Below are positions 1 to 37,810 of a stretch of DNA of 40,358 bases, piece after piece; position 1 is the first letter of the stretch, and the number at the start of each line of letters is the position of its first letter. Position numbers and translations under genes: made by a program. The notes beneath the pieces are model-generated. The model ran no database searches. It was given only the letters and a program-made list of their open reading frames with translations, and was not told the DNA's origin. Location: positions 1 to 40,358 of the forward strand of contig MGZZ01000003.1 of assembly GCA_001802795.1 (NCBI GenBank), in the 5' to 3' direction. This stretch comes from Ignavibacteria bacterium GWC2_36_12 (GTDB lineage: Bacteria; Bacteroidota; Ignavibacteria; Ignavibacteriales; Ignavibacteriaceae).

Positions 1-2192
1 AAAGAAATCTGATCATATTGAGATTGATCGCCAAACTGGTAGAAACGTGCACGGATATCGTAGGGGTTAGGAACAACACGAACTAATTCCAACAAGCTTC
101 CACCTGAAATAGAATAAGGAGTAACAAAATTAAACCCTCCGTATGAAACTACATCCCGGGCATTATATGCCGAACCGGAAACCCATTCTCCAACATATGT
201 GGTTACCTTCCAATTAACATAATCAGAATCTGGAGGCTGGTTAGTAGAATCCATACACACATAGTTTAAACCATTATAAATTACTGCCTGATAGGGTACA
301 TATAGAGAATCTGAAACCCAATCAACCGGTGAAAAGGATTTCCAATTAGTAGTATCATTTCCCGGAGGCATAGGCGGCGCTGTAACAGCCGGTCGCTGAA
401 GAGTAGCCGGTGTATTAGTTATAGTCCATGCAAAACTACTGAAATTATCATTAGATTTTGATTGGATATAATAGTAATAATCAAATCCACGCGTTGCAGT
501 TACATCATCAAAGCTACTAGCATCAGGCCCGAGATCTGTAAGCCTTTCATAAACAGTCCGATAATCCAGAATATTCCCCCGGGATCTATAAATTACATAC
601 CCCGTGGCTCCTTCAACGGGGGCCCATTCAAGTCTAATGCGGTCACCGCCCGAAATTACTGAGAAGGAACTTGGAGGAGGAGGGGATTGAATAAATCCGG
701 GAGTGTTATAATTATCTATAGCATTACGAAAAGTTTTAATAATAGAATCTTTCCCTGTTTCGACCCATCTGCGTTTATATAGATTAAAATCAGTAGTTGT
801 TGAACCATCCGGCATCCTTAATTCTGGTGTTCCGGTTCCATTTCTCCATTGAAGCCATCTTATACCGACTTCACGTCCTTTTTCCCACGAAATACCTGAT
901 ACACCTTCAGCAAAAACAATACGAATACTGTCCCCTGGATTTAATGTGTAAGGTCCAAACCCTTGTCCCTGACTTGCACCCCCGCCGGCTTGTCTGACAG
1001 GATCACTATAATTAAATGGATAGTTATCACCAACCAGTACATCATGCTTAACAGATGGATGACCTTCAGATATAATATCGAATCGGTCCTGCATTTCCGA
1101 TTCATTATACTGACTTACATTTTGGTCGACATGAGTACCATCGGAAGAGATAAACCAGGTAGTTTTCGGTTGAAGAGGATCATTACTTTGATTTTGCGAA
1201 CTAACATCGGCATGAAGTGTTACAACCCCGGCATATTTGGCTGTACCCAAAGTACCAGCATCAGGGTCATCAAGTTTTGGCGTACCCCAATCTTCCGCAT
1301 AACTTGGACGAGGAGCACCTTCAAATGGACCCGGCCATGAAAAAAAACCTCTCATCGGATTTCCATCATTATCTGTATACTCAGGATTACCGGGATCTTC
1401 GCCAAAAGAATGATTAATACAGTTAGGGCCCCATGTTGTATTAAAATGCCCCCATGTCGAAGCAAAGGCTAATGAGGTCACTCCTGAGAAAGCATATCTA
1501 TAAAAGAAATAAAACCAGACATCTTGCAGCGTTTGCTGTTGTACATCTCCCTGCCGGTTATAAATTCCAGTATTTTTAAAAACATACTCGTTAATGAAAT
1601 AATTACCATGTTCTGAATTAGCAAAAGCATATACCTTCTTTGTAACAGAAATGCCGATAGATGTATTGAATTCTACTAAAACCATTCTATCAGATGGTAA
1701 ATTTGGATCTATTTCGTCAACTAAATCGTAAAGTGAATTGTCTGATGCTTCCTGGTTATCAACAAGCACTTCCGGACGAGCATCTCTACCAATTAATCTT
1801 ATTTCAACCGGAAAGATTTGGTTAATACGATCAGGAAAATCTCTTGGTCCTGAACCAATAACTTTTGCACTTCTAAGAACATTATCGGCTGGATCATTAA
1901 AGCTTCTGCAGCCAATCCATAATCCTTTCATTCTCGATGTTGTCTGGTCAATGCTAAATTGTGCTGGCCATGAAAAGAAATTATTAATATTAGTACCTGA
2001 AGGAATTTCACCTTCAAATTCCGCTCCGATTTCATTAATAGGGGCTTGTAAATCACCAACATGAAGCCATCTGATTGCCTGAGAGTATCCTGAATTATTA
2101 CCAAACAGAATCAAAAAACCAATAAAAAATGCTAAGAACTTACCCCTTTTAAAGTCTTTTTGATTTCTAAATTTTTGAATTATTTTTTTCAT
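1..2192 (-). CDS. Secreted FN3-containing protein with CBM5/12-like repeats and PNPY-type C-terminal domain; 3' end truncated by window edge
   Basis: Not in the ORF track because it runs off the window. Manual translation of the minus strand from ATG at 2192-2190 gives MKKIIQKFRNQKDFKRGKFLAFFIGFLILFG... and stays open to base 1. It contains an FN3-like stretch (GGDRIRLEWAPVEGATGYVIYRSRG...), two W..S..Y..G..V.Y.G..Y repeats, and RVVPNPYDIRARFYQFGDQSQYDQIS, which is homologous to the 11042-13543 product. Confidence 0.88.
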   Translation of the reverse strand, partial: MKKIIQKFRNQKDFKRGKFLAFFIGFLILFGNNSGYSQAIRWLHVGDLQAPINEIGAEFEGEIPSGTNINNFFSWPAQFSIDQTTSRMKGLWIGCRSFNDPADNVLRSAKVIGSGPRDFPDRINQIFPVEIRLIGRDARPEVLVDNQEASDNSLYDLVDEIDPNLPSDRMVLVEFNTSIGISVTKKVYAFANSEHGNYFINEYVFKNTGIYNRQGDVQQQTLQDVWFYFFYRYAFSGVTSLAFASTWGHFNTTWGPNCINHSFGEDPGNPEYTDNDGNPMRGFFSWPGPFEGAPRPSYAEDWGTPKLDDPDAGTLGTAKYAGVVTLHADVSSQNQSNDPLQPKTTWFISSDGTHVDQNVSQYNESEMQDRFDIISEGHPSVKHDVLVGDNYPFNYSDPVRQAGGGASQGQGFGPYTLNPGDSIRIVFAEGVSGISWEKGREVGIRWLQWRNGTGTPELRMPDGSTTTDFNLYKRRWVETGKDSIIKTFRNAIDNYNTPGFIQSPPPPSSFSVISGGDRIRLEWAPVEGATGYVIYRSRGNILDYRTVYERLTDLGPDASSFDDVTATRGFDYYYYIQSKSNDNFSSFAWTITNTPATLQRPAVTAPPMPPGNDTTNWKSFSPVDWVSDSLYVPYQAVIYNGLNYVCMDSTNQPPDSDYVNWKVTTYVGEWVSGSAYNARDVVSYGGFNFVTPYSISGGSLLELVRVVPNPYDIRARFYQFGDQSQYDQIS

Positions 2193-2211
2193 TGAATCCT
2201 CTGTTGTATTG

Positions 2212-5200
2212 CTATTCACCAAGATTAAATGAGAATCTTAATCCGAAGAAGAATCTTCTTGGATTTAAGAACCAGAATGTAGACGCATTCGGCATGTCTA
2301 TATAAGCTTTGTCTTCATTCATCTTATCAATTCGGTTTTGATCGACTTGTCTCCATTGATCATTTACGTATTCTCTGTAAACACCGGTTGAAATTTCATA
2401 GTACCATGCTTGAGCGAGGTCTTGAGACGGAGGCTGTGTGGGATCCCAAACATCAACACCAATTAAAGGTTGAAATTCAGTACCCGGTTCTCTATAATCT
2501 CCAACTTTATCATTGCCGGGAATATTAGGATAAGCATCACTTTTCGGCAGATGCAGGGATGCCATATAAGCCTGGTCGCCTGTAGTATTCCACAATCTTA
2601 AAGTATTTAACACATTATCTGCGTCAATAAATAAAGTGATACCAAACTTCCCTATATTAATTGTTTTATCAAGCCGGAGATGAACGTCAAAGAAATCTCT
2701 TGCCTGAACATTATAAGCAACATTTAAGAGTCCATTTGGATTCCATGTAGTCCAATATCCATTCTGCCAATCAGCTGTAACATTTAATCCGAAGCCCCCA
2801 AGTATTTGATGTCCTAAAACTTCCGGTCCAAAATCTTCAGGAGAATTAATATTGATATTAGCTCTTGCGTAAGGCTGAGGTATGGGACGGTCTTGATAAA
2901 GGTTAACGGTTTTGGAATCATAATTAGCTTGCTGCTGTTTGCCAGAAAAGATCCGCGCACTTCCAAAATGTCCTGTGGTTCTAACCTGGTAAGTATAATT
3001 TATAAAACCATTCCACCAAAGCCCTGCTGTTTTTCGTAAAGTAATTTCAAAACCACGAACATCTTCATAATTATTTGAAGTTGATTGTGTATATTCCAAA
3101 CCAGTTCCCTGAGAAGTATACCGTGTGAAGTCTTGCTGGTCAGTAATATCATTATAAAAAGCAGCTAATTGGAGCAAGTATTCCTCAAACAATATATGAT
3201 CATAACCCAATTCGTAAGAAATTGTTTTAGCTAAAATTAAACTGGGATCGCCAAAACTTGTCACCTTACGCGTCTGATCCCGCTCAATTCTGAATAAGCT
3301 TTCATATTGTGGTACCTGCTTAAAATGGCCATAATTAAAAAACAACTTGGAATTTTCAGTTATAGGATGTGAAATACCTAAACGAGGACTTAACTGCCAT
3401 TGCGGCTCTGATTCCTTTTTAGGAAACAAGTTGGTGTCATCATAATTAATATTACCTGAGTTATCAGATAAAAAGAAACGGCCGTCAAATGGATTTAAAT
3501 CCCACCAAGCTGCCTGTGAATCAGTGTAATCCAGTCGCAATCCTGCGTTTACTGTAAATTCTTGAAATTCAATCTTGTCCTGAACATACATAGATGCACG
3601 AATTGGAAATACCTGCATCAATACCCTATTCGAATAACCTTTGTTAGGATCCAGATAATTTTCTAATTGTGAGCCGGAATTTATAGTTCCATAGTCGAAA
3701 TTAAGATCATTGTAATTAAATTCTATTCCTGCTTTTATTAAATTCTGAAAATTGAGCTGAGTAGTAAAATCAGCTTTAATTGTTGTACTATTAACCTTTG
3801 TATTGTCCCGGGCTTTAGCATAATGAGAACCTTCTCCCCAATTTAGAACACTAGTTACATCTTTAGGCCAATATCCCAAAGGGTTCGAATCCTCGAAAAA
3901 TCCCGGGACTATTTCAAACCTGCCCAAACTATCTCTCAACCCTGTTGGACGAGTGTTATAATCCCTTCTAAAATGTTCTATAGAAACTTCATAAAAAGTA
4001 GTGGCACCTAAAGTATGAGTAAGTTTGCCTGCATAAGACTGATGTGAGATATCAGAAAGAGAAAAGTTAAAATTGGAAAACAGCCCAAATAAATCATAAG
4101 TATTGGCTACAGCACTTGCAACATTTGCAATCTCATTTGGGAAACGGGGATAATAATAAATACCCACAGCATCCCAATTATGTCTTATTGTAAATTGTTT
4201 CCCTATCAGGCTTGAAAATCGAAGTGTCATCTCCTTAGAAATATTGGAAGTTAATTGTAATGTCCAATCGTAATCCCTATAATCAGGCCTTGTCAGAGGG
4301 AAGAGCAACATCTCTCGATTGCTTCGAAAAGATGTAAAAAATCTTAAATCACCAAGAGATTTACTTATAAAAGGAATTGGTCCCCCAAATCCAGCATCAA
4401 TTTCAAAGTCAGGCTCATCATTAATTTGCCTCTTTCTTGTTTCATACATAAAAGCCCTTTGAGCTGCTTGAGGGGTTAAATCATTATTTGGATTATTATC
4501 TGAATTTAAATTTTCAGCAACCTTATTCCATCCTTGAAATATGGGGTATTGATCGCGAGTGTATTTATCCCATGCACCATTTTGAGTACCTGTCCAGCAC
4601 ACAGCAGGATCAAAGAAAGGTCTTAAAACATATGAATATGGGTCAAGAATATCCCTGATACCTTCGCCTCTCCAATATTTGGGAGCGGGCGGGCTGTATC
4701 TTATTTGAAAACTTCCGGAGTAATTCTCTTTACTTCCTTCCTTGGTAACGACATTAACTACTCCTGAACGAACCTGGCCATATTCGGCTTGAAATCCACC
4801 ACGCTCAACTGAAATTTCTTTTACAGAACTAAGGGGAATCCGGGTCATAGGTTCATTGTTTCTGGGATCCCGTAAAGTAACCCCATCCAGTTCAAAAAGA
4901 ATATTATCACCATCGCCGCCGCGAATGTTTAATCCTCCCTGTACGCTTACTTTTCCTCTTGCGGTAAAATCTGGATTATTTCCTGTGAGGAAAGTCGGTT
5001 GAGCAGCTCCGTCAGTAAAAGAACTCCAACCTCCACGAATACCAGCCTGCAATCCAATAGCACTTATTACACTATTAATGGGTAATCTCTCAATTTCCTC
5101 ATCGGAAACTGAAGAAACACTTGTAGATACATCTGGCCTGATTGTATTCCTTTCGGCTGTAATCACTACTTCACCAACTTGAATGGTTTCTTCTTCAAGT

Positions 5201-5514
5201 GCAACATCTATACGTGCAGTCTGGTCAATAAATACTCTGACTTCATTTATTTTAATCTTCTGATATCCGACGAAGGATATTTGAACATCATATGTCCCGG
5301 GGGGAACTTCCAGGATTGTGTACCGACCATCAAGGTCTGTAGTGGTTCCTAATGTTGTTTCAATAACCACTATGTTAGCACCGGGTAATGGTTCCCCGGT
5401 TTTTTTATCGGTTACAGTGCCTGCAATTTTTCCTGTTGTTCCTGACCAAAGTGGTGATACAGATGCAATTGTCAACAGAAGAATCACTACAATCAAGTTC
5501 TTCAGTTGTCTCAT
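2212..5514 (-). CDS. TonB-dependent receptor with N-terminal carboxypeptidase-regulatory-like domain
   Basis: Signal peptide, then GTTGKIAGTVTDKKTGEPLPGANIVVIETTLGTTTDLDGRYTILEVPPGTYDVQISFVGYQ (CarboxypepD_reg), plug motifs (NIRGGDGDNILFELDGV) and a beta-barrel ending in FFFGLRFSFNLGE. The track start at 5520 is TTG; ATG at 5514 with an upstream GGAAGGAG is the more likely start. Confidence 0.93.
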   Translation of the reverse strand: MRQLKNLIVVILLLTIASVSPLWSGTTGKIAGTVTDKKTGEPLPGANIVVIETTLGTTTDLDGRYTILEVPPGTYDVQISFVGYQKIKINEVRVFIDQTARIDVALEEETIQVGEVVITAERNTIRPDVSTSVSSVSDEEIERLPINSVISAIGLQAGIRGGWSSFTDGAAQPTFLTGNNPDFTARGKVSVQGGLNIRGGDGDNILFELDGVTLRDPRNNEPMTRIPLSSVKEISVERGGFQAEYGQVRSGVVNVVTKEGSKENYSGSFQIRYSPPAPKYWRGEGIRDILDPYSYVLRPFFDPAVCWTGTQNGAWDKYTRDQYPIFQGWNKVAENLNSDNNPNNDLTPQAAQRAFMYETRKRQINDEPDFEIDAGFGGPIPFISKSLGDLRFFTSFRSNREMLLFPLTRPDYRDYDWTLQLTSNISKEMTLRFSSLIGKQFTIRHNWDAVGIYYYPRFPNEIANVASAVANTYDLFGLFSNFNFSLSDISHQSYAGKLTHTLGATTFYEVSIEHFRRDYNTRPTGLRDSLGRFEIVPGFFEDSNPLGYWPKDVTSVLNWGEGSHYAKARDNTKVNSTTIKADFTTQLNFQNLIKAGIEFNYNDLNFDYGTINSGSQLENYLDPNKGYSNRVLMQVFPIRASMYVQDKIEFQEFTVNAGLRLDYTDSQAAWWDLNPFDGRFFLSDNSGNINYDDTNLFPKKESEPQWQLSPRLGISHPITENSKLFFNYGHFKQVPQYESLFRIERDQTRKVTSFGDPSLILAKTISYELGYDHILFEEYLLQLAAFYNDITDQQDFTRYTSQGTGLEYTQSTSNNYEDVRGFEITLRKTAGLWWNGFINYTYQVRTTGHFGSARIFSGKQQQANYDSKTVNLYQDRPIPQPYARANININSPEDFGPEVLGHQILGGFGLNVTADWQNGYWTTWNPNGLLNVAYNVQARDFFDVHLRLDKTINIGKFGITLFIDADNVLNTLRLWNTTGDQAYMASLHLPKSDAYPNIPGNDKVGDYREPGTEFQPLIGVDVWDPTQPPSQDLAQAWYYEISTGVYREYVNDQWRQVDQNRIDKMNEDKAYIDMPNASTFWFLNPRRFFFGLRFSFNLGE

Positions 5515-5876
5515 ATCCAATTACTCCTTCCAATTTAGGTAAACTCTAATGTAATGTCTATGTGGTTAATTTCAAGCATTCGTAAATCTTGCGGTTTTTT
5601 GTATTTACGATTATACATATATGTTGGTGAAATAGCTGGTAAGAAAATAATAAAAGATACATGGAATATCTATAGTAACAATAATGATCAATAACTTTTT
5701 CCTTTTCCTATTTTCTTTTTTGCCCTACTATAAAAAATATATTATTCTAAAATATAAATATTATACACAATGATTATACCGGTAGGGATAAGCTAATAAC
5801 TATGAGTGTTTGATAACGTTGCGGTACAAATTTCTTTATAACTATATCATAAAGATAAAACCGGATTATACCATTT

Positions 5877-5893
5877 TATATCAAATTGATATA
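5877..5893. promoter_or_regulatory. Candidate operator: perfect inverted repeat TATATCAA-A-TTGATATA
   Basis: 8-bp arms with a 1-bp spacer in the divergent intergenic region 5515-6194. Further half-sites TATATCA at 5843 and 6009, and TTGATATA at 6051. Confidence 0.35.
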
Positions 5894-6194
5894 GAACTTT
5901 AAAGTATGGTGCTGTATTGTGATATGCTGCTCAAAAAATAGAAAGGGAAAAATTATCTTATTTCTTATGAAAATAAAAAATATAAATGTTCCAAGAATTT
6001 TCTTCAGTTATATCATTTTTATATAAAATACTTTTTATGCTCTTATCTTATTGATATAAATTAGATGCTCATCCCAAAAACTTTTACCCAAAATATGAAT
6101 TTATCGAATCTTTTGGTATCGGTATGATCATTGTGTAACTAATAAGACTTAATTGTACATAAAAAAATTAAAAGGACTTAATTAGGATTACATA

Positions 6195-7772
6195 TTGTTT
6201 GGTTTATCTACAGTAGGTGTTTTTTTATATTTTTTATTTTTTGTCTCTCTTATTTCTTTCAGTATGTATGTTTCGCGTACAAAAGAAGTGACAGTTGAAA
6301 GTTATTTTTTTGCTAATAGGAACATACATTGGTTGATGTTAGGGGTCTCTCTTTTAACACCAAGCTTTTTCAGCCCTTATATTTTCGGACTGAGCCTGTC
6401 CGGGACTTCAGAATTAATAATTGTTTATGGAATAATTTCTGCGATAATGCTTGTTATTTTAGGCTGGTTTTTAATTCCTCTCTATCTGAAATTAAAAATA
6501 AATACTCTTCCTGAATATTTCGAAAAAAGATTTAACAGGGCTTGCAGGCTTTTTATTTCATCGCTTTATATTTTCTATAACATTTTTATCAGGCTGATAG
6601 TTATTCTTGTAACCGGAAGTATTATCATAAGTACAATTAGGGGCGTTGACACTTATTCTTCTCTTCTTTTTTTTCTAATTATAACGGGTATTTATGTTAT
6701 TACCGGCGGATTGCACGCTGAAATTTATGTGAACGTTATTTTAGTATCACTCATAGCAATTGGAATAGCAGGATTTTCCTTGTGGGCTGTTTATCAAAGC
6801 GATGGAATTAATTCGGCAATCTATAAAATTGCTCCTTCGACCAACTACAATTCCGGGTCCACCTCGACGTGGTCTAACCTAATGCTCGGTCTTCCCATCC
6901 TCGGTTTTTGGTTCTGGTGCACAGATCAATTTATAGTTCAAAAAACCTTAAGTGCCCGCACTACTTCTTTTGCGAGGAAGGCAACACTCTTTTCAGGATT
7001 TTTACAAATAATTCCAATTTTGATTTTTATTTTACCAGGTATTATTTCAATAAAACTCTTTCAGGATGCTGCTTTTGAAAGTTCAATGCATTCCTTGTTT
7101 TCGGGTAGTATTCTTCCGGAAACTATTAAAGCGGGAATAATAATAGCTGTAGCAGCCGTATTAATGGGTTCTTTTGCCGGTCTTTTCAACAGCACTTCTT
7201 CACTAATCACATTCGATTTTTATCGGAATCTAAGACCTGCTGCATCTGATAGAAAGCTGGTCCTTGTGGGCAGGTTAACAACAATTTTCCTGGTGTTATT
7301 CTCAATTTTGTTAATTCCATTATCTCAAAACATGGATTTTAATTATTCGTTAAAACTTTTTGAGACCTTCGCATATTTTGCTGCACTGGTTACGGGAGTA
7401 TTTCTCACCGGTTTATTGAATAAAAAAATTAATTCATTTAGTGCCTTGGCAACTTTATCTGTAGGAACAGTAATAATTTTATTAAGAAGCTTGCTGAATA
7501 TTATTTTCGATTACAATCCTGCCGGTAACGGTTTTTTCAGCTGGTTTATTGAAGTTAATTTCCTGGTTTTTTCATTTTTTATTTTTTTGCTTTCGATTTT
7601 CTCTTTATTTCTTTTTTCCAGGTTAACCTTGGTTCAACTTGCCTCTGGTTCTTTTTTAAGAATACTAAAAGAAATATTCTTGAAATTAAAAATTAGATGG
7701 AATTTTAATAAAACTGTTTTTTTAATTCTATTAGTCCTTGTAATAATTGTTACATGGGGGGTATTATTTTAA
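6195..7772 (+). CDS. Sodium:solute symporter family (SSS/SGLT-like) transporter
   Basis: Many hydrophobic TM segments; SSS-like N-terminus (LYFLFFVSLISFSMYVSRTKEVTVESYFFANRNIHW) and SGLT-like FWFWCTDQFIVQKTLSARTT. Start codon is TTG at 6195. Confidence 0.9.
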   Translation: MFGLSTVGVFLYFLFFVSLISFSMYVSRTKEVTVESYFFANRNIHWLMLGVSLLTPSFFSPYIFGLSLSGTSELIIVYGIISAIMLVILGWFLIPLYLKLKINTLPEYFEKRFNRACRLFISSLYIFYNIFIRLIVILVTGSIIISTIRGVDTYSSLLFFLIITGIYVITGGLHAEIYVNVILVSLIAIGIAGFSLWAVYQSDGINSAIYKIAPSTNYNSGSTSTWSNLMLGLPILGFWFWCTDQFIVQKTLSARTTSFARKATLFSGFLQIIPILIFILPGIISIKLFQDAAFESSMHSLFSGSILPETIKAGIIIAVAAVLMGSFAGLFNSTSSLITFDFYRNLRPAASDRKLVLVGRLTTIFLVLFSILLIPLSQNMDFNYSLKLFETFAYFAALVTGVFLTGLLNKKINSFSALATLSVGTVIILLRSLLNIIFDYNPAGNGFFSWFIEVNFLVFSFFIFLLSIFSLFLFSRLTLVQLASGSFLRILKEIFLKLKIRWNFNKTVFLILLVLVIIVTWGVLF

Positions 7773-7807
7773 AGTGATTTTATAGAGTCTTATAAAAGGA
7801 GAAAGCT

Positions 7808-10800
7808 ATGCCATCGGGTAAATGCCGAATTATTCGCTTATGTGTAATAATAATCTTATCCATTTCTAATATTCTTTTTGCGGGAACCACAGGAAAAATA
7901 ACAGGCAGAATTTTGGATAAAGATACGGGTGAACCTCTCCCGGGTGTAAATGTAATTGTTGAGGGAACAACACTCGGTTCAACCACCGACATAGACGGTT
8001 ACTATGTTATTCTTCAGGTACCGCCCGGTTCATATAATGTTGTTGCAAGCATGGTGGGATATGCAAAAGTAATTGTTTATGGAGTACGCGTTCATATAGA
8101 TCAAACAAGTCCAGTTGATATTGAAATGATTGAAGAGGCATTTGAAATTGAAGATATAACTGTTGTAGCTGAAAGAAATATAGTAAAAAAGGATGTATCT
8201 ACCAGTGTAGCTGCAATTTCACCTGACGAAATTGAAGCCCTTCCCGTTACTTCGATAGGTGACATTGTAAGTTTACAGGCAGGAGTTGAAGAGGGTTTTA
8301 TTGTTAGAGGAGGCCAGTCTGATGAACTTTTATATCAAATAGATGGTGTTACTTTACGCGATCCTGCAAACAATAAACCCATAACTACAGTTGCTCTATC
8401 ATCAATTCAGGAAGTATCGATAGAGCGTGGTGGATTTAATGCCGAATACGGACAAGTACGATCAGGAATAATAAATATTGTAACAAAAGAAGGTGATTAT
8501 AGTGCTTATCATGGATCAGTACAATTAAAATATAGTCCTGCAACTCCAAAGCATTTTGGAATGTCTGTATATGATCCTAATTCTATGTGGAATCGTCCTT
8601 ATCTGGATGATGCAGTAGCCTGGACAGGTACTGAAAATGGTGCGTGGGATCAATATATGCAGCGTCAGTATCCTAATTTTGAAGGTTGGAATGCGATTTC
8701 AAAACGGCTTTTATCTGATGACAATCCTAATAATGATCTTTCTCCCTATGCCGCCCAACGCCTTTGGATGTGGGAACATAGAAGAAGACCCAGCACAGAA
8801 GCCCCGGATTACAACATTGATGCAAGCTTTGGCGGCCCGGTTCCTTTCATAAGTAAACAACTTGGTAATTTACGTTTTTTTACAAGCTTTCGCTTCGAAA
8901 GAGAGATGCTTCTAATCCCTCTTAGCAGAGATGATTATCAGGAGTATAATGTTTCGGCAAAAATAAATTCTGATATAAAAAATGATATGAGATTGACGCT
9001 GTCTGGCTCATATGGAAAATCTTATAATGTTGCTATTAATGCCGATGATTCCCAGTTTAATAATAACCAATTTGGTGTAAACGGAGCTCAATTCTGGAAT
9101 CCGACTGATTATTTACGGACACCTTTATCAATTGCACAGCAGCTCAGCGATCATAGAGCCAGTAGAATTTATACCGAATCCTGGTATAGCCCTGCCGATG
9201 TCAGTCACTTTACACTATCTGGAAAACTAACTGATTTCATAGCCAAATCTACATTTTACGAAGTTAGTTTTGAACATGTAAACCGCAAATATGAAACAGG
9301 ACCTCTTGAAGAAAGAGATCTTTCAAAAATATACGAGATAATTCCCGGGTATTTTGTAGATGAAGCTCCGTATGGATGGAGCAGCAGTGCTACTGCAGGA
9401 ATTGGCGATCCTGATATGTTCTTCGGCGGGCATTCAGCTCAAATGCGCGATTCCAGCAAAACCAATTCGTATACCCTCAAGTTCGATCTATCAAGTCAAT
9501 TTACTAATGAGCACTTATTTAAGTTAGGAGTTGAATTTGCTTACTTTGATCTTAACTTAAATTACGGTAAAGTCAGCCCTGCTTTCGATGATATAAATTA
9601 TGTAGAAGAGCAATGGAATCCTTACAGGATTTCTGCTTACATACAGGATAAGATTGAAATGCTCGGCTTTATTGCTAATATCGGATTAAGAATGGATTTA
9701 AGCAATCCAAATACTGAATGGGTAGATGTTGATCCCTTTGATAAGTCTTACTTCTCAGGGGACTATGATGAAAGTATTAGTTATCCGACAAAGAAATCAG
9801 ATATTGATGTTGCCTTCAGCCCCCGCATAGGTATTTCCCACCCTATTACTGATAATTCTAAACTATATTTTAATTATGGGCACTTCAAACAACTGCCTGC
9901 CTATCAAGAAATTTTCAGATTAGGTCGAGGTGGTTCAGGAGCGTTATCTAATTTTGGTGACCCTAATTTAATAGAAGCAAAAACAATTGCCTACGAGTTA
10001 GGCTACGACCATGCTTTGTTCGATTTATACTTATTACAAATCCAGGCCTTTTACAGGGATATATCGAATGTACAGGCTTACACAAACTATACGAGCGAAA
10101 GAAAAGGCATAGGGTACTTCAAAGTTACAAATGATAATTATCTGGATGTAAGAGGTGTTGAGGTAACACTTAAAAAATCTATCGGCGATTGGATACGTGG
10201 TTTTGTTACGTTTACATACCAGGTAACTACTAACGGCGCATTTGGTAGTGGAAGGATTAATGACAATCCTGCAGATCAAAGGATAATTGATCAGACTACT
10301 CAAAATGTTTATCAGCAAAAACCGGTACCCCAGCCGCGTTCAAGAGCGAGCTTAACATTTTTAACACCTCATAATTATGGAGCTGACTTCGGCGGCATTC
10401 AACTCCTTAGTGATTGGTCACTCACAATTTTAGGAGACTGGAGAGCTGGTCAATATATAAATTACAATCCAAATCAAATCCGTACAATTTCAAATATAGT
10501 TCAGAACGTTCAGACATCAGATTATTTGAATATCGACTTTCAATTAAATAAAACATTTGATTTTAATTCCTTTTCTGTAATGTTCTTTATAGACGTGAGG
10601 AATTTCCTTAACACGAAGAGACTGTCTGGCGCTAGTTTTTACGATGCGAGAGACCAGCAGTTTTATATGGAATCGCTTCACCTGCCTAAAAGTGACGCTT
10701 ATAATAATATTCCTGGTGATGACCGAGTTGGTGATTACAGGGAAGATGGAGTGGAATTTCAGCCAATTATTTACGACTACTCAACAATACAGCATGTAAG

Positions 10801-11008
10801 CAATCCTCAAACACGTCCATTCTATTACGAAACTGCTACGGGCAGGTATATGCAGTATGTTAGCGGCAATTGGCAAGAAGTAAATAAAGATAAACTCGAT
10901 CAAGTACTGGAGGATAAGGCGTATATAGATATGCCTAATAACACTTCCTTCAACTTTTTGAACCCAAGACAAATTTTCTTTGGAATTAATTTATCATTCA
11001 AATTATAA
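7808..11008 (+). CDS. TonB-dependent receptor, paralogue of the 2212-5514 receptor
   Basis: CarboxypepD_reg domain (GTTGKITGRILDKDTGEPLPGVNVIVEGTTLGSTTDIDGYYVILQVPPGSYNVVASMVGYA), plug VRGGQSDELLYQIDGVTLRDPANNKP, and C-terminal SLHLPKSDAYNNIPGDDRVGDYRE...EFQP shared with the other receptor. ATG preceded by AAAGGAG. Confidence 0.94.
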   Translation: MPSGKCRIIRLCVIIILSISNILFAGTTGKITGRILDKDTGEPLPGVNVIVEGTTLGSTTDIDGYYVILQVPPGSYNVVASMVGYAKVIVYGVRVHIDQTSPVDIEMIEEAFEIEDITVVAERNIVKKDVSTSVAAISPDEIEALPVTSIGDIVSLQAGVEEGFIVRGGQSDELLYQIDGVTLRDPANNKPITTVALSSIQEVSIERGGFNAEYGQVRSGIINIVTKEGDYSAYHGSVQLKYSPATPKHFGMSVYDPNSMWNRPYLDDAVAWTGTENGAWDQYMQRQYPNFEGWNAISKRLLSDDNPNNDLSPYAAQRLWMWEHRRRPSTEAPDYNIDASFGGPVPFISKQLGNLRFFTSFRFEREMLLIPLSRDDYQEYNVSAKINSDIKNDMRLTLSGSYGKSYNVAINADDSQFNNNQFGVNGAQFWNPTDYLRTPLSIAQQLSDHRASRIYTESWYSPADVSHFTLSGKLTDFIAKSTFYEVSFEHVNRKYETGPLEERDLSKIYEIIPGYFVDEAPYGWSSSATAGIGDPDMFFGGHSAQMRDSSKTNSYTLKFDLSSQFTNEHLFKLGVEFAYFDLNLNYGKVSPAFDDINYVEEQWNPYRISAYIQDKIEMLGFIANIGLRMDLSNPNTEWVDVDPFDKSYFSGDYDESISYPTKKSDIDVAFSPRIGISHPITDNSKLYFNYGHFKQLPAYQEIFRLGRGGSGALSNFGDPNLIEAKTIAYELGYDHALFDLYLLQIQAFYRDISNVQAYTNYTSERKGIGYFKVTNDNYLDVRGVEVTLKKSIGDWIRGFVTFTYQVTTNGAFGSGRINDNPADQRIIDQTTQNVYQQKPVPQPRSRASLTFLTPHNYGADFGGIQLLSDWSLTILGDWRAGQYINYNPNQIRTISNIVQNVQTSDYLNIDFQLNKTFDFNSFSVMFFIDVRNFLNTKRLSGASFYDARDQQFYMESLHLPKSDAYNNIPGDDRVGDYREDGVEFQPIIYDYSTIQHVSNPQTRPFYYETATGRYMQYVSGNWQEVNKDKLDQVLEDKAYIDMPNNTSFNFLNPRQIFFGINLSFKL

Positions 11009-11041
11009 TAACGAATTGTGACAAACAAAGGAAATAATCAA

Positions 11042-13543
11042 ATGATTATAAAAAATTTAAATAGAGTAATAACTGCCCTGTTTCTTTGCTGTGCTTCTAT
11101 CATCCTGAACCCCGGTTTGCTGTTTGCTCAAGCCGGTGTTCAAGGTACCCAGCAGAATGTAATAAAATGGATGTGGGTAGGAGGATTACGTTCCTGGTTT
11201 TCAAATTCTGGATCAGAAGGTGAGTATTTTAGGCGTGATAGAACTACCTACGTAGCGCAGGATCAGATTGACGGAATGTTATACCCGGGCGAATATAACA
11301 ACAGGATGAAGGGAGTGAAAATTTCTAAAGCATTTTGGCTGGGAACTACTAATTTTCTCGATCCGGTTTCAAATGTTCTTTATCCCCATAAAATTATAAG
11401 TGCGGGGCCTGCGGGGGTATATATGGGCACAGAGATAATTGCAGAGGAATCATTCGGCAATGTAGGTATAAAAATGCTAGGTAAATTTGATCATCCCAAC
11501 GTATACGTAGATAATACTAATTCTTCCGTAATCGAATTTAATGATGAAGTAGATGAAATAGACGATGCCTTGCCATCAGACAGGATGCTGATAAGTAAAT
11601 TTCATACGAGTATAGGAATAACTGTAACAAGAAAAATTATTGCATTTTCGCAGCAATACCACGATAATTACTATATTTATGAATACACACTAAAAAATAC
11701 AGGAATCATAGATAGAAGCGGCGAACAAAAGATAAATAAAACCCTTACCGGAGTAGTATTTTATCTGCTCGGCAGATATTCCTTCGCCGGTGAATCGTAT
11801 ACAGGTACTGGAGTAGGCGACTGGTTTCCCGCGGGATCTTCTTGGGGTAGAAATACATTAATCGACCACGTGGGGCAGGATGAGAGTCATCTGTTGGCTC
11901 CACCGAACGATTTCCAAGCCATGTTGACTTATTATGGACCTCATTCAAGTACTCTATTCGGAAGTCCGTTAAGCGATATTGGACTTCCAGGTCCAAGAGC
12001 TACAAACGTATTGACTCTTGCAGGAACTCAATTTTCCGGAATTGTTTTACTGCATGCAGATAAAGCACCGGGTGATACGACGCATGACAAATCCAAACTT
12101 ATTTCAACAGTATCTGTAGGCGCCGATGCTACAAGAGATATAACTAATTCCCCAGGCTTTCAATATAACCAGGCTACTATGACGAGGAAATACCTCGAGT
12201 ATATGACCGCCGGACATCCCAATCAAACTCTGGCTGAACAAGTTGGAAAAGACCCTGTAACAGGCTGGCCAAATGCTTATGCTAATACATTTGGTACTGA
12301 TCCAGGAGGCTCTATTGCAACTCAGGGTTTCGGTACTTATGATCTCGCCCCTGGAGATAGTGTGCGTATAGTAGTTGCAGACGTCGTTGCAGGGATCAGC
12401 CGCAATAAAATTTTAGAGGTTGCCGAAAATTGGTTCACTAATAACACTTCAGAATTTGTTTTGCCACAGGGTTATAAAAATGGAACTACTACTACAGATC
12501 GCGATGAATACAAAAACGCATGGGTATTTTCTGGTAAAGATTCTTTGTTCCAGTCTTTCAGGAGAGCAATTGCAACCTATAACAACAACTACAATATACA
12601 ACAGCCACCACCACCACCGGATAATTTTGAGGTTAATTCTGGAGGAGACAGAATAAGACTTTCCTGGTCTAGCAACGCAGAATCCTGGCCAAATTTTGAT
12701 GGATACAGAGTATATAGAGCCGAAGGACGAAATGATACAGTATTTACGCAAATTTTTGAATGCAGCAAAAATAATGTTGTAAATTCTTATGATGACAAAA
12801 ATGCAATCCGTGGATTTAATTATTACTACTATGTACAAACAAAAGATAATGGTTCAACGAATGATATTGAGCCTGGAGTTCCCCTTGTTAGCAGCAAATA
12901 TTATACAATGACCTCCAATCCGGCGTACTTGACCAGGCCGGCAGGTGTTACATTAACAACGGTTGCACGAGATACTTTTTATACAGGTGATGGTTTAACA
13001 ACTGAGTTTATTTTACCTATGTCTGTTGCAGACACCAGTGGTACTGTTATACACGGCTTATCAATAAACGTAAACGGTGTTAAACAAATTCCTGCCTCAT
13101 ACAGTGTCACTTTCGATACATTGAGATTTATTAAGGCCCCACTTGGCACTATTGAAGTAAAAGTTATTTCTCCTACTGAAGAAAGAAGCTATAAACTTTC
13201 GGAAATTAGAATAGTTCCTAACCCATACAATCTGAAAGCAAGAAACATACAGTTTGGTGAGAATGACCAAACTACACTAGATAGATTAGCTTTTTATAAT
13301 CTTCCACCAGTTTGTAGAATAAAAATTTATACCGAAACAGGCGACTTAATAGAGACCATTGAGCACACCAATGGCAGCGGGGATGATTACTGGCATTCCC
13401 TCACCTCTTCAAGGCAAATTGTAGTTAGCGGGTTATACATTGCCTATTTTGAAGTTACTGAAGATTATAGTGATGATATCACAGGCGAGTTTCTCTATCG
13501 AAAAGGTGATAGTATTTTCAAAAAATTTGTAATAATAAGATAA
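11042..13543 (+). CDS. Secreted FN3-containing protein with PNPY-type C-terminal domain; paralogue of the 1-2192 product
   Basis: Track start 11018 is GTG; ATG at 11042 gives a clear signal peptide (MIIKNLNRVITALFLCCASIILNPGLLFAQ). FN3-like region GGDRIRLSWSSNAESWPNFDGYRVYRAEG; C-terminus RIVPNPYNLKARNIQFGE...VSGLYIAYFEV...KFVIIR. Confidence 0.9.
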   Translation: MIIKNLNRVITALFLCCASIILNPGLLFAQAGVQGTQQNVIKWMWVGGLRSWFSNSGSEGEYFRRDRTTYVAQDQIDGMLYPGEYNNRMKGVKISKAFWLGTTNFLDPVSNVLYPHKIISAGPAGVYMGTEIIAEESFGNVGIKMLGKFDHPNVYVDNTNSSVIEFNDEVDEIDDALPSDRMLISKFHTSIGITVTRKIIAFSQQYHDNYYIYEYTLKNTGIIDRSGEQKINKTLTGVVFYLLGRYSFAGESYTGTGVGDWFPAGSSWGRNTLIDHVGQDESHLLAPPNDFQAMLTYYGPHSSTLFGSPLSDIGLPGPRATNVLTLAGTQFSGIVLLHADKAPGDTTHDKSKLISTVSVGADATRDITNSPGFQYNQATMTRKYLEYMTAGHPNQTLAEQVGKDPVTGWPNAYANTFGTDPGGSIATQGFGTYDLAPGDSVRIVVADVVAGISRNKILEVAENWFTNNTSEFVLPQGYKNGTTTTDRDEYKNAWVFSGKDSLFQSFRRAIATYNNNYNIQQPPPPPDNFEVNSGGDRIRLSWSSNAESWPNFDGYRVYRAEGRNDTVFTQIFECSKNNVVNSYDDKNAIRGFNYYYYVQTKDNGSTNDIEPGVPLVSSKYYTMTSNPAYLTRPAGVTLTTVARDTFYTGDGLTTEFILPMSVADTSGTVIHGLSINVNGVKQIPASYSVTFDTLRFIKAPLGTIEVKVISPTEERSYKLSEIRIVPNPYNLKARNIQFGENDQTTLDRLAFYNLPPVCRIKIYTETGDLIETIEHTNGSGDDYWHSLTSSRQIVVSGLYIAYFEVTEDYSDDITGEFLYRKGDSIFKKFVIIR

Positions 13544-13618: not shown

Positions 13619-14617
13619 GTGAAATGCTTACATAAATTATACTTAACAGCTTTAGTTCTGGGATTGGCTGCATCCACATCATTCAGCCAGACAAAATTAG
13701 CTCAGACGGGCTTTAATTTTCTAAGTATATCCTCCGATGCAAAATCCAGCGCGATGGGTGATGCTGTAAATTCTTTGTCTGGCTTTTCAGGGGCTATGGC
13801 TCACAACCCGGCTTCTATGGCTGAAATGCCGAATTTGCTCGGTGCTACTTTTAGTATAAATAAATGGATAGCGGATATTAATTACCTATCGGCAAGTTTT
13901 ATACTCTCACCTTACTCCGGCGATTATGGCACAATTGGTTTAAGCTTTCAATCGGTTGATTATGGCGATCTGGAAGGAACTGTTGTCGACAGAACTAATC
14001 CAAATGGTTATTCCGAAACGGAAATTTTCAGTCCCTCGGCTTTTGCAATAGGAGTTGGGTATGCTAAAATGATCAGCCAGCAGTTTGGCGTAGGTGCCCA
14101 GATTAAATATGCACGCCAGGAACTTGGTGAAAGCTCTTTTATGACTGAAGAAGGAGATGTAACATCAAAGAAGAATAAAGCAGATGCCGTTGCATTTGAT
14201 TTCGGTACTATTTATAAAACCGGCATTAAGAGCATTGCATTTGGAATGTCGGTAACAAATTTTTCGAAGGAAATAAAATATGAAGAAGAAGGTTTCCAGC
14301 TACCTTTACTTTTCACAATCGGTATTTCTGCGAATGTTTTTGATTTCTTCGATATGCCGGCTATAAATCAGGATTTGATGTTATCTGTTGACTGGACTCA
14401 TCCACGGTCTCATCCGGAACAGATAAAAATAGGATTAGAATATAAAGTCTTTGACGCATTTTCCCTAAGAGGCGGCTATATTGGCGGAAATGATGAAAAT
14501 GATTTCACATTTGGAGCGGGTGTATCTTACTTCGGAGTTGAATTTGATTATGCTTATACTCCTTTCGGAGTGTTTAACGAAGTTCAAAGATTTACAGCAC
14601 GTCTTTCATTGTTATAG
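13619..14617 (+). CDS. PorV/PorQ-like outer-membrane beta-barrel protein
   Basis: Signal peptide, then QTGFNFLSISSDAKSSAMGDAVNSLSGFSGAMAHNPASMAEMPN, typical of the PorV/UPF0164-like family (SSDAR..AMGDA...NPA). C-terminal barrel strand ending FTARLSLL. GTG start after AAAGGAGAATAAAAA. Confidence 0.78.
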   Translation: MKCLHKLYLTALVLGLAASTSFSQTKLAQTGFNFLSISSDAKSSAMGDAVNSLSGFSGAMAHNPASMAEMPNLLGATFSINKWIADINYLSASFILSPYSGDYGTIGLSFQSVDYGDLEGTVVDRTNPNGYSETEIFSPSAFAIGVGYAKMISQQFGVGAQIKYARQELGESSFMTEEGDVTSKKNKADAVAFDFGTIYKTGIKSIAFGMSVTNFSKEIKYEEEGFQLPLLFTIGISANVFDFFDMPAINQDLMLSVDWTHPRSHPEQIKIGLEYKVFDAFSLRGGYIGGNDENDFTFGAGVSYFGVEFDYAYTPFGVFNEVQRFTARLSLL

Positions 14618-14633
14618 AATAAAGGGTATAAAC

Positions 14634-16001
14634 ATGAAAAACAGTAACACATTAATTCATTCAGTTAAAACTTCCGGAATATACAAAATAGTTCTACACT
14701 GTAGTTTAATTTTTTGTACTATCATTACTCTGAATAGCTGTGTCAATTTCGAGGAACCGGGTATAATATATGAGCCTTCATTCCAAAGAACCAGCAATCC
14801 GACTATTACAGGAGTTACGCCCGAAGGGATAGCATTAGGCGGTGTAAGAGAGATTACTATTTCAGGTCAAAATCTGGGAGTGAAGAATGGTTCGGATACA
14901 GATTGGGTTTATGTAGGAGGCAGACAGGCAGTTATTAAAGAAATAATCGGGGATCAGACAATCGTAGTATATAGACCTCAATTGCCTAATAGTAATTACG
15001 ATACAAAAATTTATATCAGTGTTACAGCTCCGAAAGCTATCGATACATCAGCTAACGCTGAGTATATGGTTGAGTCACCTGGAGAAACTGTTGGAGACTA
15101 CGGTACAGCTTTCAGTAGTTATCCTATTACTGCCGTTGATTTTGACAACGATGATAATATTTATTTAATAACTGCTTCTACATCCAGCAGATCAGTTTGG
15201 AGAAATGATCCTTCCGGTGTTTCTTTAACTCAAATGACAGGAAATTTCTCTCCTTCATCTGCTTTTAGCATAATTACAGATGCAAAATTTGGACCCGGGC
15301 AGATAGGTTACAACCTTTATGTGGCTAATGGAACAACTACTATTTACAGGCAGCGTGTCGATTCAGTTGTTACTGGTACAATAAGGCCCGAAGCGGTTGA
15401 CACACTACCGGCGGCAGTTAGTAAACTAGATGTTGATGAAAACGGTAATGTATATACAGCCGGCAGCGAGGGAGTTTTTATGACAAATTTAAGTGATGGC
15501 ACCACTTCTCAAAATCTCGGCTACGAAGGAACTCCGAATCTTATTGGCATTCGAACGTATTACGAAAGTAATAACGGCTATCTGTATATTGCAGATACTC
15601 TTAATATATGGCGAAGCCAGATTAACCCTGATGGATCGTTAAGTGGAAAGGAATCTATAGTAAACCTTAACAGTATACCGGATCTCAGTAGTACTTATAT
15701 AAGCTCATTTACTATAGATGAAAATGGAAGTATCTACCTTTGTTTAAGAAACCATCCGACTCATTCGATATTTTTCAGAGAGAACGATGGTTCGATTACT
15801 CCCTATTATTATGAAAATATCCTGCCAAACTCTGTTGATTTACTGGTTTGGGGTAGAGACAGATATCTTTATTTAATAAGCTCGATATTAGGCCCTGATG
15901 GAGTTAGAGTTACAAGGTCACCATACGCTTCAGGCAGAGTTTTCAGAATGGCATTAGATAAAAACGGAGCTCCCTATCAGGGGAGAAAATTTTTACAATA
16001 A
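14634..16001 (+). CDS. IPT/TIG-domain lipoprotein with NHL/beta-propeller-like repeats (candidate surface glycan-binding protein)
   Basis: Lipobox LNSC after a hydrophobic stretch; PTITGVTPEGIALGGVREITISGQNLG (IPT/TIG); repeated 'D..GNVYTA/YLYIAD/ENGSIYLC' blades. The 14481 start in the track overlaps the upstream gene; ATG at 14634 fits the signal peptide. Confidence 0.8.
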   Translation: MKNSNTLIHSVKTSGIYKIVLHCSLIFCTIITLNSCVNFEEPGIIYEPSFQRTSNPTITGVTPEGIALGGVREITISGQNLGVKNGSDTDWVYVGGRQAVIKEIIGDQTIVVYRPQLPNSNYDTKIYISVTAPKAIDTSANAEYMVESPGETVGDYGTAFSSYPITAVDFDNDDNIYLITASTSSRSVWRNDPSGVSLTQMTGNFSPSSAFSIITDAKFGPGQIGYNLYVANGTTTIYRQRVDSVVTGTIRPEAVDTLPAAVSKLDVDENGNVYTAGSEGVFMTNLSDGTTSQNLGYEGTPNLIGIRTYYESNNGYLYIADTLNIWRSQINPDGSLSGKESIVNLNSIPDLSSTYISSFTIDENGSIYLCLRNHPTHSIFFRENDGSITPYYYENILPNSVDLLVWGRDRYLYLISSILGPDGVRVTRSPYASGRVFRMALDKNGAPYQGRKFLQ

Positions 16002-16125: not shown

Positions 16126-17895
16126 ATGACAGTCAGAAAAACCTTACTATTGATATCTTGTCTGGTTTTTGTTGCTGGTACTGCTCAAGCCCAGTTGTCG
16201 AAAGTAGTTTCAGACAGCATATATCAGATCCCTAAAACAACAGTTGCTCCTGTAATTGATGGAGTAATTGATGACGTTTGGAAAACCCTTGACTGGAATT
16301 TCCAAAGGACATATGTTGTTGATAATGACGCAACTCCGCCTGATGATCGCACCGATCTTACAGGAATGAGCAAAGCATTGTGGGATGATGATAATCTATA
16401 CATATTGTTCTATACACAGGATGACGATATCCAGGATAATCCCACTGTTGTAGGACAAACCTGGAATAAAGATGCCGTTGAGATTTATATTGATGGCGAT
16501 AACAGCAAAGTTGCAGATAACACCGGATGCGATCCTGGCGGCGGAAGATGCCCGGATGACCATCAGATGACTATACCTCATGAATTTATAGATATTGAAG
16601 CTGATACAGTAGATGGTATTGGTTTAGACGCTTCCGTAGATCTTACGGGTATTGAATTCAAAATTGCCGAAGTTGATGGTGAAGCCGGTTTAGGCGGCTG
16701 GCTGGTAGAAGTGAAACTCCCTCTTGAAAATCTCGGCGTACCCGCAATTGAGGGTTCACTGATTGGCTGGGAACTGCAGCAGGATGAATCGGATGCAGAT
16801 CACGCAGGTGCACGCGGTGATATGTCTAAATGGTGGAATGAAAGCAACAACTCATGGACAGATGCCAGTATTTGGGGAACCGCTGTTCTTAGTGGAAGGG
16901 TTGTAGATGAAGCGTACGAAATTGGAAAAGTTCCGGCTGGTACAACTATAACGATAGATGGAGTAATGGATCCTGTTTACTGGGGTGCCAATCCTGCTAC
17001 TATGAATGAATTCAGAGTAGGAGATCCTCCAACCGGTACTGAACCGGACAACATAGATGATGCCCTTTTAACAGCATATGTTCTATGGGATGATAATAAT
17101 ATTTATTATTTCATAGATGTTGTAGATGACGATATACAGGATAACCCCACTGTTGTAGGACAAACCTGGAATAAAGATGCAGTTGAGATTTATATCGATT
17201 CCGATAATAGCAAAGTGCCAGATAATACTGGATGCGATCCTGGAGGCGGAAGATGCCCGGATGATCATCAGATAACTATACCTCACGAATTCATTGGTTT
17301 TGAAGCTGATACAGTAGATGGACTCGGCTTTGATGCTTCTGTAGATCTTACAGGCGTTGAATTCAAAATTGTCAATAAAGAAGAAGGCGGCTGGTATTTA
17401 GAGTTGAAGATCCCTCTTGAGAATGTTGGCATTCCTGCTACAGAGGGTTCTTTATTAGGATTCGAACTGCAGCAGGATGAATCTGATGCAGATGATGCCG
17501 GCGCCCGTGGAAGTATGGAGAAATGGTGGAATTTATCCAACAACTCCTGGACAGATGCCAGCATTTGGGGAACTGCAAGGCTTGGCGGAGAGGTTACTGT
17601 TGGAGTTAGAGAAAAACCATCACCGGTTCCAACAAAATTCGAGCTTTCTCAAAACTATCCTAATCCGTTCAACCCAGGTACAAAAATAACTTTCAGTGTT
17701 ACTGAACCCGGTTTGGTTACTCTAAAAGTATTTAACCTGCTTGGAGAGGAAGTTGCCACACTCGTAAATGAACAACTTTCTACAAGTACTTATGAAGTTG
17801 ATTTTAATGCAGGTAATTTACCAAGTGGTGTATATCTCTACAGAGTGACTACAGGAAATACTTCTATCACTAAAAAGATGATGTTACTTAAGTAA
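16126..17895 (+). CDS. Secreted tandem CBM9-like (DOMON-like) protein with T9SS type A sorting domain
   Basis: Two copies of an approximately 220-aa module (VIDGVIDDVWK...; ITIDGVMDPVYWG...) with near-identical NPTVVGQTWNKDAVEIYID.DNSKV.DNTGCDPGGGRCPDDHQ. C-terminus FELSQNYPNPFNPGTKITFSV...LPSGVYLYRVTTGNTSITKKMMLLK. RBS AGGAGG. Confidence 0.9.
   Translation: MTVRKTLLLISCLVFVAGTAQAQLSKVVSDSIYQIPKTTVAPVIDGVIDDVWKTLDWNFQRTYVVDNDATPPDDRTDLTGMSKALWDDDNLYILFYTQDDDIQDNPTVVGQTWNKDAVEIYIDGDNSKVADNTGCDPGGGRCPDDHQMTIPHEFIDIEADTVDGIGLDASVDLTGIEFKIAEVDGEAGLGGWLVEVKLPLENLGVPAIEGSLIGWELQQDESDADHAGARGDMSKWWNESNNSWTDASIWGTAVLSGRVVDEAYEIGKVPAGTTITIDGVMDPVYWGANPATMNEFRVGDPPTGTEPDNIDDALLTAYVLWDDNNIYYFIDVVDDDIQDNPTVVGQTWNKDAVEIYIDSDNSKVPDNTGCDPGGGRCPDDHQITIPHEFIGFEADTVDGLGFDASVDLTGVEFKIVNKEEGGWYLELKIPLENVGIPATEGSLLGFELQQDESDADDAGARGSMEKWWNLSNNSWTDASIWGTARLGGEVTVGVREKPSPVPTKFELSQNYPNPFNPGTKITFSVTEPGLVTLKVFNLLGEEVATLVNEQLSTSTYEVDFNAGNLPSGVYLYRVTTGNTSITKKMMLLK
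16230..17600 (+). repeat. Internal tandem duplication of the CBM9-like module within the coding sequence
   Basis: Segments around 16433-16590 and 17140-17295 are nearly the same at the nucleotide level (e.g. ccactgttgtaggacaaacctggaataaagatgc in both). Confidence 0.9.
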
Positions 17896-21994: not shown

Positions 21995-21999
21995 GCAAC

Positions 22000-25619: not shown

Positions 25620-25631
25620 GGAAGGTTGAAC

Positions 25632-34757: not shown

Positions 34758-34804
34758 AGGATGTCCTCCAATAATTTTGATTATTGATTAGTTAATTAAA
34801 TTAC

Positions 34805-37800: not shown

Positions 37801-37810
37801 TAATTAGCAT
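34805..37810 (-). CDS. TonB-dependent receptor (TIGR01782/TonB-Xanth-Caul-like) with CarboxypepD_reg domain
   Basis: GVVRGTVMDKNTEEPLVGANIIVKGTSIGAATDLEGKFIIRNIPVGSQTLTISYIGYNS; plug RIKELPDVNAAETIGRLPGVSIERSGGEANKISIRGLEPKYNSVTVNGVRLPATGSDDRSIDLSLIASNMLDGITLKKANTPDMDADALGGTVDLR; C-terminal barrel strand GFTMDLGIRYNLQ. Confidence 0.94.
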   Translation of the reverse strand: MLITSFYKSRRKFYSGTLLVLLLLLLSQSFLFAQVGVVRGTVMDKNTEEPLVGANIIVKGTSIGAATDLEGKFIIRNIPVGSQTLTISYIGYNSVSIDVNIIENRSFEENFYLEYKTIEGETVTITAQAEGQLGAINQQFNSNTIANVVARDRIKELPDVNAAETIGRLPGVSIERSGGEANKISIRGLEPKYNSVTVNGVRLPATGSDDRSIDLSLIASNMLDGITLKKANTPDMDADALGGTVDLRLKEAPVGLQFSASVQGGYNQLQDYYGNYALTGSVSNRFLDNSLGVIANLNLDDYNRSADKFQGDYNQTGVAPDIVVKPTNIRLRAENVTRRRTGASILLDYRIPSGKVIANSFYNRLNNESINRINVMNVAENRHQYTLENKDDVTSIFTGTVGIEQDFNWIKYDFTVARTSSLTDNPGNYEWNFIQENVAFNTGGVYAGMDPHEIPALQTIDTLTTGLRNVFIHSTTRKENESSFQFNTQLPFMIGSDIKGYVKLGGKFRWLDRLNDQEKWGLDNLQYGGSAYQNASIVAALKYLAEHYPDDWNWESDSALARNYAAFPVSRFLLNEPSPHFLNGEYNLGFMINERILRQFTDAFKSNADQYPNNWLSYSTGTGYGDYGSDGGDYDGIERYQAAYIMSELSWNFFTLIPGVRYERDYSEYNGQRFRGAGSAASVTPPDYTKLNNVRENEFWLPIVHLIVSPADWLKIRLARTETLTRPDYIQYAPITSIDIYGNYIRANNALLKPARSVNLDASVQIYENYTGFFTISGFHKRIENLIFQVGYQLRAGVPTLEGSNIPDDWRTNNPYMDTYVNNPNPAYYKGFELDWQTRFWYLPSVLQGLVLNVNYTRIFSEIDKQIYSTQRVITGIPPRSSYIVTDTIRTSRMPYQPAHILNVTFGYDFKDFSLRLSYLYQSDKTAWIANDAALDQSTGTYYRWDLTLQQKLDWGLQVYANLTNLNKRADRNYRGNVETNASYTEYYGFTMDLGIRYNLQ

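Follow-up and report, generated by a model that had tools for sequence, protein, structure and literature searches.

The window, that is, the whole stretch of DNA analysed here, an entire contig (C3) of 40,358 bases, encodes two divergent copies of a SusD-free gene pair in which a TonB receptor is followed by a large secreted protein containing a fibronectin type III domain (FN3) and a PNPY tail (hereafter the FN protein). The gene content, the fixed gene order and the co-inheritance of the pair, together with the apparent nature of the FN protein as a cargo of the type IX secretion system (T9SS), point to a hitherto unreported mode of surface sugar capture by a receptor and a T9SS-exported partner. 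SusCD is the textbook route of glycan import in Bacteroidota, SusD being the all-helical lipoprotein used by Bacteroides. A sizeable and sparsely cultivated portion of the phylum has no SusD, or has it rarely, and yet degrades polysaccharides; the model described below, if true, would explain how oligosaccharides are imported in the SusD-poor bacteria of this phylum.

Gene composition of the two cassettes and the adjoining glycan-utilisation cluster

The source genome (3.83 Mb, 94%-complete) has Melioribacter and other Ignavibacteria as its nearest named relatives. Re-examination of the open reading frames recovered all five genes of the preliminary description, namely two receptors, two FN proteins and a symporter, unchanged in position, and its divergent, duplicated arrangement was borne out by the similarity of the two copies: identity reaches 45% between the receptors (1102 columns, E=0) and 33% between the FN proteins (747 columns, E=2e-97). 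The left receptor (2212..5514, minus strand; the reading frame starts with either TTG at 5520 or ATG at 5514) precedes the left FN gene (3..2192, minus strand), the product of which is included in a 69-member family alignment. An intergenic region without any open reading frame of at least 100 aa (5515..6194) separates the left cassette from the right one, which consists of a sodium:solute symporter of the SSS family (6195..7772, plus strand; PF00474, E=1.3e-41; TIGR00813), the right receptor (7808..11008, plus strand) and the right FN protein of 833 aa (11042..13543, plus strand). The contig end interrupts the PNPY domain of the left FN protein, so that the full neighbourhood is visible for the right cassette only; owing to the same contig end, PorV and TIG genes are not visible in the left cassette.

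The right cassette extends past the FN gene to ~16 kb. The next gene encodes an outer-membrane barrel of the PorV/PorQ family (13619..14617, plus strand) that matches NF033709 with 193 bits (cut-off 90), scores under both the PorV and the PorQ equivalog cut-offs and is the proposed cognate shuttle or anchor of the FN protein. It is followed by an IPT/TIG-domain lipoprotein (14634..16001, plus strand; PF01833, E=2e-8) with a signal peptide ending in LNSC, which is possibly a surface glycan-binding protein. Among the 57 TIG proteins encoded downstream of FN genes in related loci (see below), a lipobox regular expression recognised 33, but this expression is too strict, and several of the proteins that it missed also show a cysteine right after the signal. 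Beyond the TIG gene follow a CBM9-domain protein with a canonical type A T9SS tail (16126..17895, plus strand; PF06452, PF18962), a second SSS symporter that is kept in sister loci (17973..19937, plus strand; PF00474), two GDSL/TPR proteins, a GH5 enzyme (24261..25619, plus strand; PF00150, E=4e-64), a GH94 phosphorylase (25626..28100, plus strand; PF17167, E=1e-156), a GH5-like protein and a SASA-type esterase. The two GDSL-lipase + TPR proteins lie in tandem (20054-24234) and have relatives in the corresponding cluster of the sister loci L040, L041, L042 and L047.

Because of the presence of GH5 and GH94, the right-hand cluster is most likely a polysaccharide-utilisation locus for beta-glucan or cello-oligosaccharides, judging from its predicted enzymes. 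The shared CBM9/SSS/GDSL-TPR cluster is headed by the receptor-FN module in the window copy and in L040, L041, L042, L047 and L093, and GH94 is also seen in L040. A sub-clade of loci additionally encodes a protein of ~275 aa between the FN and PorV-like genes (L041, 3735-4577; L042, 6890-7726; L047, 10229-11044). Generic FN loci of other families (L134, L120, L095, L111 and L118) encode GHL10 proteins that are secreted and end in T9SS tails; L118 also has a gene for a CBM48 protein near an alpha-amylase-like gene. These observations suggest that the ancestral substrate of the module could have been an alpha-glucan or another compound.

The paired receptors and their apparent T9SS-exported partners

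Both receptors contain a CarboxypepD-like N-terminal extension (CarbopepD_reg_2), a Plug domain and a barrel, as detected with Pfam, and the motifs LHLPKSDAY.NIPG.D.VGDYRE and EDKAYIDMPN, which had been described as common to the two, are indeed present in both. The C-terminal ~130 aa of the right receptor hold a clade-specific SLHLP...GDYR...DKAYIDMPN segment; in the FN-linked receptors, this conserved segment (SLHLP ... GD.PGDYR ... DKAYIDMPN) sits ahead of the last strand. SLHLP is found in 52 of 57 FN-linked receptors, as is MPN, and both are missing from the 26 further receptor ORFs of the source genome that were scanned. The segment, which comprises the motifs noted in the preliminary description, might serve as a docking loop. 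Against the SusC/RagA model (TIGR04056), the paired receptors score only 93-108 bits, with a cut-off of 368, and the alignment covers only the N-terminal extension and the plug; they show no match to TIGR01782.

Neither Pfam nor NCBIfam contains a family that matches the FN proteins as a whole. The FN3 assignment is backed by a profile search, which hit an Fn3-like chain of the PDB (3mpc, E=3e-6). The signal peptides of both window copies are SPI-like and lack a cysteine at the cleavage site, and a lipobox-like motif is present in 2 of 72 FN ORFs, so that, unlike SusD, these proteins do not appear to be surface lipoproteins. An AlphaFold model of the right FN protein built on 69 homologues reached a pLDDT of 82 and a pTM of 0.78; an earlier model from 10 sequences was discarded (pLDDT 59). 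In our interpretation of the model, a Sec signal peptide is followed by a beta-supersandwich (~33-451), a helical linker (454-514), an FN3 domain (~520-632), a lineage insert (634-717) and a C-terminal domain (CTD, 719-833). A fold search of the PDB matched carbohydrate enzymes of the GH94, dextran dextrinase and GH116 types (best E=4e-7) as well as fibronectin type III arrays and, over the predicted CTD region, PorU (6za2) and PorZ (5m11), with TM-scores over the whole query that are low (~0.2); SusD is not among the fold matches listed. Comparison by hhalign detected no sequence relation between the N-terminal domain of the FN protein and the GH94 enzyme of the same cluster, so that the supersandwich likeness is one of fold only. 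The predicted combination of beta-supersandwich, FN3 and CTD stands in contrast to the helical SusD.

The PNPY region of the right FN protein spans 13196..13540 (plus strand). When 18 PNPY domains of the family were scanned singly, 17 matched the PorZ model, 14 matched TIGR04183, the model of the T9SS type A tail, and eight matched PorU, all of these matches being weak and below the curated cut-offs; the nearest solved structure to the PNPY profile is the CTD of PorZ (5m11, E=0.018). Given these matches, PNPY most likely represents a sub-class of T9SS sorting domains near PorZ and PorU, which would make the FN protein a T9SS cargo. In the source genome, the PNPY-type tail (IR[VI]VPNPY ... NLP..CTIRIYT..GELV ... 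KFAIIK) is visibly distinct from type A tails (QNYPNPFNP ... KKMMLLK), which are commoner. The genome encodes the T9SS translocon SprA (837 bits) and the sortase PorU (966 and 955 bits) along with 12 PorV-family genes above the cut-off, one of which adjoins PorU. PorZ and PorU themselves retain their CTDs and are complexed with PorQ and PorV, respectively (PMC5562754), and it has been proposed in a review that cognate PorV-like barrels shield such CTDs from cleavage (PMC10202324).

Conservation of the pair and the absence of SusD

The same genome contains five more loci in which a receptor is followed by a protein with a PNPY tail (contigs C74, C33, C46, C84/C116 and C141/C61), and wherever the sequence continues, a PorV-like gene comes next. 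The C33 set lies with GH3 (Pfam) and, as read from the sequence, a GH16-like gene, and the C74 set adjoins what appears to be a sugar-type ABC importer; on C127, there is a related but rearranged set. The contigs C84/C116 and C141/C61 (L052/L056 and L054/L055) have overlapping ends, each splitting one receptor or PNPY-protein gene, so that the assembly breaks fall inside repeated receptor/PNPY cassettes. Further PNPY proteins of this genome were not counted as members of the FN family, since hmmsearch shows that it is mainly the CTD and FN3 that they have in common with it.

The third receptor in the window (34805-37810, minus strand) is of the TIGR01782 type (335 bits); the gene behind it, which completes the pair at 32199-37810, encodes a beta-helix/CBM35 protein ending in a type A T9SS tail. 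Its relatives are encoded on about seven other contigs, where a type A T9SS protein comes next as well; the TIGR01782-type receptor and the type A T9SS protein thus make up a second SusD-free pairing. Altogether, about 15 of some 33 receptors in the genome have a CTD gene next, compared to about 2% of genes that carry a CTD (binomial probability of about 1e-18, with estimated gene totals).

In a first scan of species-level genomes, nine loci were identified in Ignavibacteria, KSB1 and one further MAG, and the receptor is directly ahead of the FN gene in all nine. A search with the FN profile across the phylum gave matches in 132 of 297 genomes; judging from the E-values, those stronger than 1e-70 come from 63 genomes of about 20 families whereas the weaker ones are largely CTD-only. 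The resulting set, from 60 extra regions, the first loci and the window, comprises 72 FN ORFs that correspond to 71 distinct full-length genes, given that a frameshift splits one FN gene in two in L047. The regions were selected on FN alone, independently of receptors. A receptor is encoded immediately upstream, on the same strand, in 70 of the 71 cases (median gap 24 bp), which are not 70 independent events because the regions are partly redundant at the genus level. The script recognised 68 of these, and L103 and L124, missed because the FN reading frame as extended at its start runs into the receptor gene, were added by inspection. The only exception is the 1113-aa FN-family protein of L145 (5636-8977), which has no neighbouring receptor. 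A PorV-like gene is found within 1.5 kb downstream of FN in 58 loci and upstream in three, and a TIG gene is found downstream in 57. The module is thus widespread, occurring in about 20 families of the phylum and also in KSB1.

The pairwise distances of FN and receptor are correlated at 0.91 among 57 loci (0.87 when cut to the length of PorV) and the FN-PorV and receptor-PorV distances at 0.68-0.74 in the same loci; shared species history inflates all these correlations, but the excess of the FN-receptor value was measured within the same loci. The adjacency and the distance correlation put the co-occurrence of FN and receptor far above chance.

The preliminary description had noted that no SusD accompanies either receptor, and this holds for the window and for the whole genome: no SusD family matched the proteins of either cassette, ten FN members gave no match to SusD families at E<=5, and PF07980, PF14322 and PF12771 have no match anywhere in the 94%-complete source genome. 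The notion that the FN protein is a SusD under another name is ruled out by the Pfam, NCBIfam and whole-genome searches and by its fold. Within the class, the PF14322 cut-off is reached in 8 of 80 genomes, and in Melioribacter roseus SusC, SusD and SusE have been annotated beside cellulases (PMC3534657). In the two class SusD loci whose upstream receptor was in reach (L169 and L170), the SusD-linked receptors match SusC/RagA over the C-terminal half (289-299 bits) and do not match the profile of the FN-linked receptors. The SusC-SusD and the receptor-FN pairs consequently consist of different proteins.

Proposed mechanism, alternative readings and comparison with known systems

Taken together, these data are best accounted for by a SusD-free uptake pair, the extracellular partner of which is exported by the T9SS and held by the co-encoded PorV-family barrel, a model to which we assign about even chances. 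The TonB receptor would be the transport channel, and the FN protein would cross the outer membrane via the T9SS. The PorV/PorQ-family barrel encoded two genes past the receptor might keep the partner uncleaved on the surface, by analogy with PorZ, which is held by PorQ, and PorU, which is held by PorV. The beta-supersandwich and FN3 body, placed over the receptor, would catch oligosaccharides or present them to it, and the TIG lipoprotein would bind glycans at the surface in an accessory role. A beta-glucan oligosaccharide that feeds the symporter and the GH94 phosphorylase is the likely cargo of the right-hand copy. The broader proposition, that KSB1, Ignavibacteria and further classes of the phylum outside Bacteroidia have a distinct outer-membrane machine for nutrient uptake, in which the receptor is capped or fed by a T9SS-secreted supersandwich partner that replaces SusD and is tethered uncleaved by a PorV-family barrel of its own, is put forward more tentatively and falls somewhat short of an even prospect.

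The earlier suggestion that the FN protein is a dedicated partner of the receptor in place of SusD is in keeping with the lack of any SusD match and with the co-occurrence beyond chance. The notion of a SusCD-like pair built from different parts has to be modified: the receptors are not SusC proper, their resemblance to it being confined to the N-terminal extension and the plug, and the partner, rather than being a lipoprotein, is apparently a T9SS cargo encoded with a PorV-family barrel and an extra lipoprotein. Operon partnership alone is no proof of contact between receptor and partner. The FN protein could be an ordinary T9SS-secreted surface protein or enzyme that is co-regulated with the receptor and never touches it, given that many T9SS proteins are present in these clusters, that the beta-supersandwich fold is known from carbohydrate enzymes and that we infer the receptor-FN interaction from genomic data. 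We regard such an association without contact as rather unlikely since FN alone is fixed behind the receptor in nearly all loci whereas the other secreted proteins vary, no catalytic family can be assigned to it, and its co-inheritance is tighter with the receptor than with PorV.

The roles of the two surface proteins might also be reversed, with the TIG lipoprotein acting as the true receptor lid, in the manner of SusD or BtuG, while FN would be an accessory surface binder. Known lids are lipoproteins (PMC10404256, PMC7618045) and the TIG protein is widely kept, but its gene is separated from that of the receptor by two genes' distance and is missing from view in several loci with room for it; furthermore, no TIG homologue occurs in the regions read of the other receptor, PNPY and PorV sets of the genome, which makes this assignment improbable. 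The family of the barrel and the PorZ/PorU-like CTD, along with the non-carbohydrate neighbours in some distant loci (e.g., L108 and L141), would also be compatible with a module related to the T9SS that serves delivery or sensing, marks lineage-specific loads and takes no part in glycan uptake. Such a function seems highly improbable considering that the receptors possess the TonB plug and N-terminal extension typical of transporters and that many loci encode GHL10, CBM48, CBM9, GH5, GH94, GH3 or sugar transporters.

Should the uptake model hold, T9SS protein export would be linked directly to nutrient import, with the T9SS becoming a part of the import apparatus, and a function would be gained for the numerous PorV paralogues and proteins with PNPY-type CTDs that are currently annotated as hypothetical. 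Finders of polysaccharide-utilisation loci that demand a SusC/SusD pair will overlook these loci. The literature searched contained neither a T9SS-delivered SusD substitute nor loci combining PorV with a TonB receptor, an absence that is no proof of novelty.

The system resembles several known ones in part, the nearest published parallels being BtuB-BtuG for a lid other than SusD and PorP/SprF with type B cargo for a cognate shuttle whose gene comes straight after that of its cargo. As in SusC-SusD (RagA-RagB), the gene for a large extracellular protein lies directly behind that of a TonB receptor with a CarboxypepD-like N-terminal extension, within a glycan cluster; however, the predicted partner consists of a beta-sandwich and a T9SS CTD whereas SusD is an alpha-helical TPR lipoprotein, the receptor barrel is not SusC-like, and a PorV-family barrel is co-encoded. 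The BtuB-BtuG system of vitamin B12 uptake similarly combines a TonB receptor with a beta-rich surface partner other than SusD (PMC10404256), but BtuG is a lipoprotein beta-propeller and the partner described here has an ordinary signal peptide and an apparent T9SS CTD. The binding of a protein with a retained CTD to a PorV/PorQ-family barrel, as in PorZ-PorQ and PorU-PorV (PMC5562754), is proposed here by analogy; in the present case, the cargo is no component of the T9SS itself and goes together with a TonB receptor. The type B cargo SprB and its partner SprF offer another parallel in that the PorP/SprF shuttle gene directly follows the cargo gene (PMC12618676, PMC9143113), but the CTD of the FN protein appears to be of the type-A-like PNPY class, and the barrel belongs to the PorV/PorQ rather than the PorP/SprF family. 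Finally, the sugar receptors of the Xanthomonas/Caulobacter type (TIGR01782) are likewise SusD-free, and the third receptor of the window belongs with them, in contrast to the paired receptors, which do not match this family.
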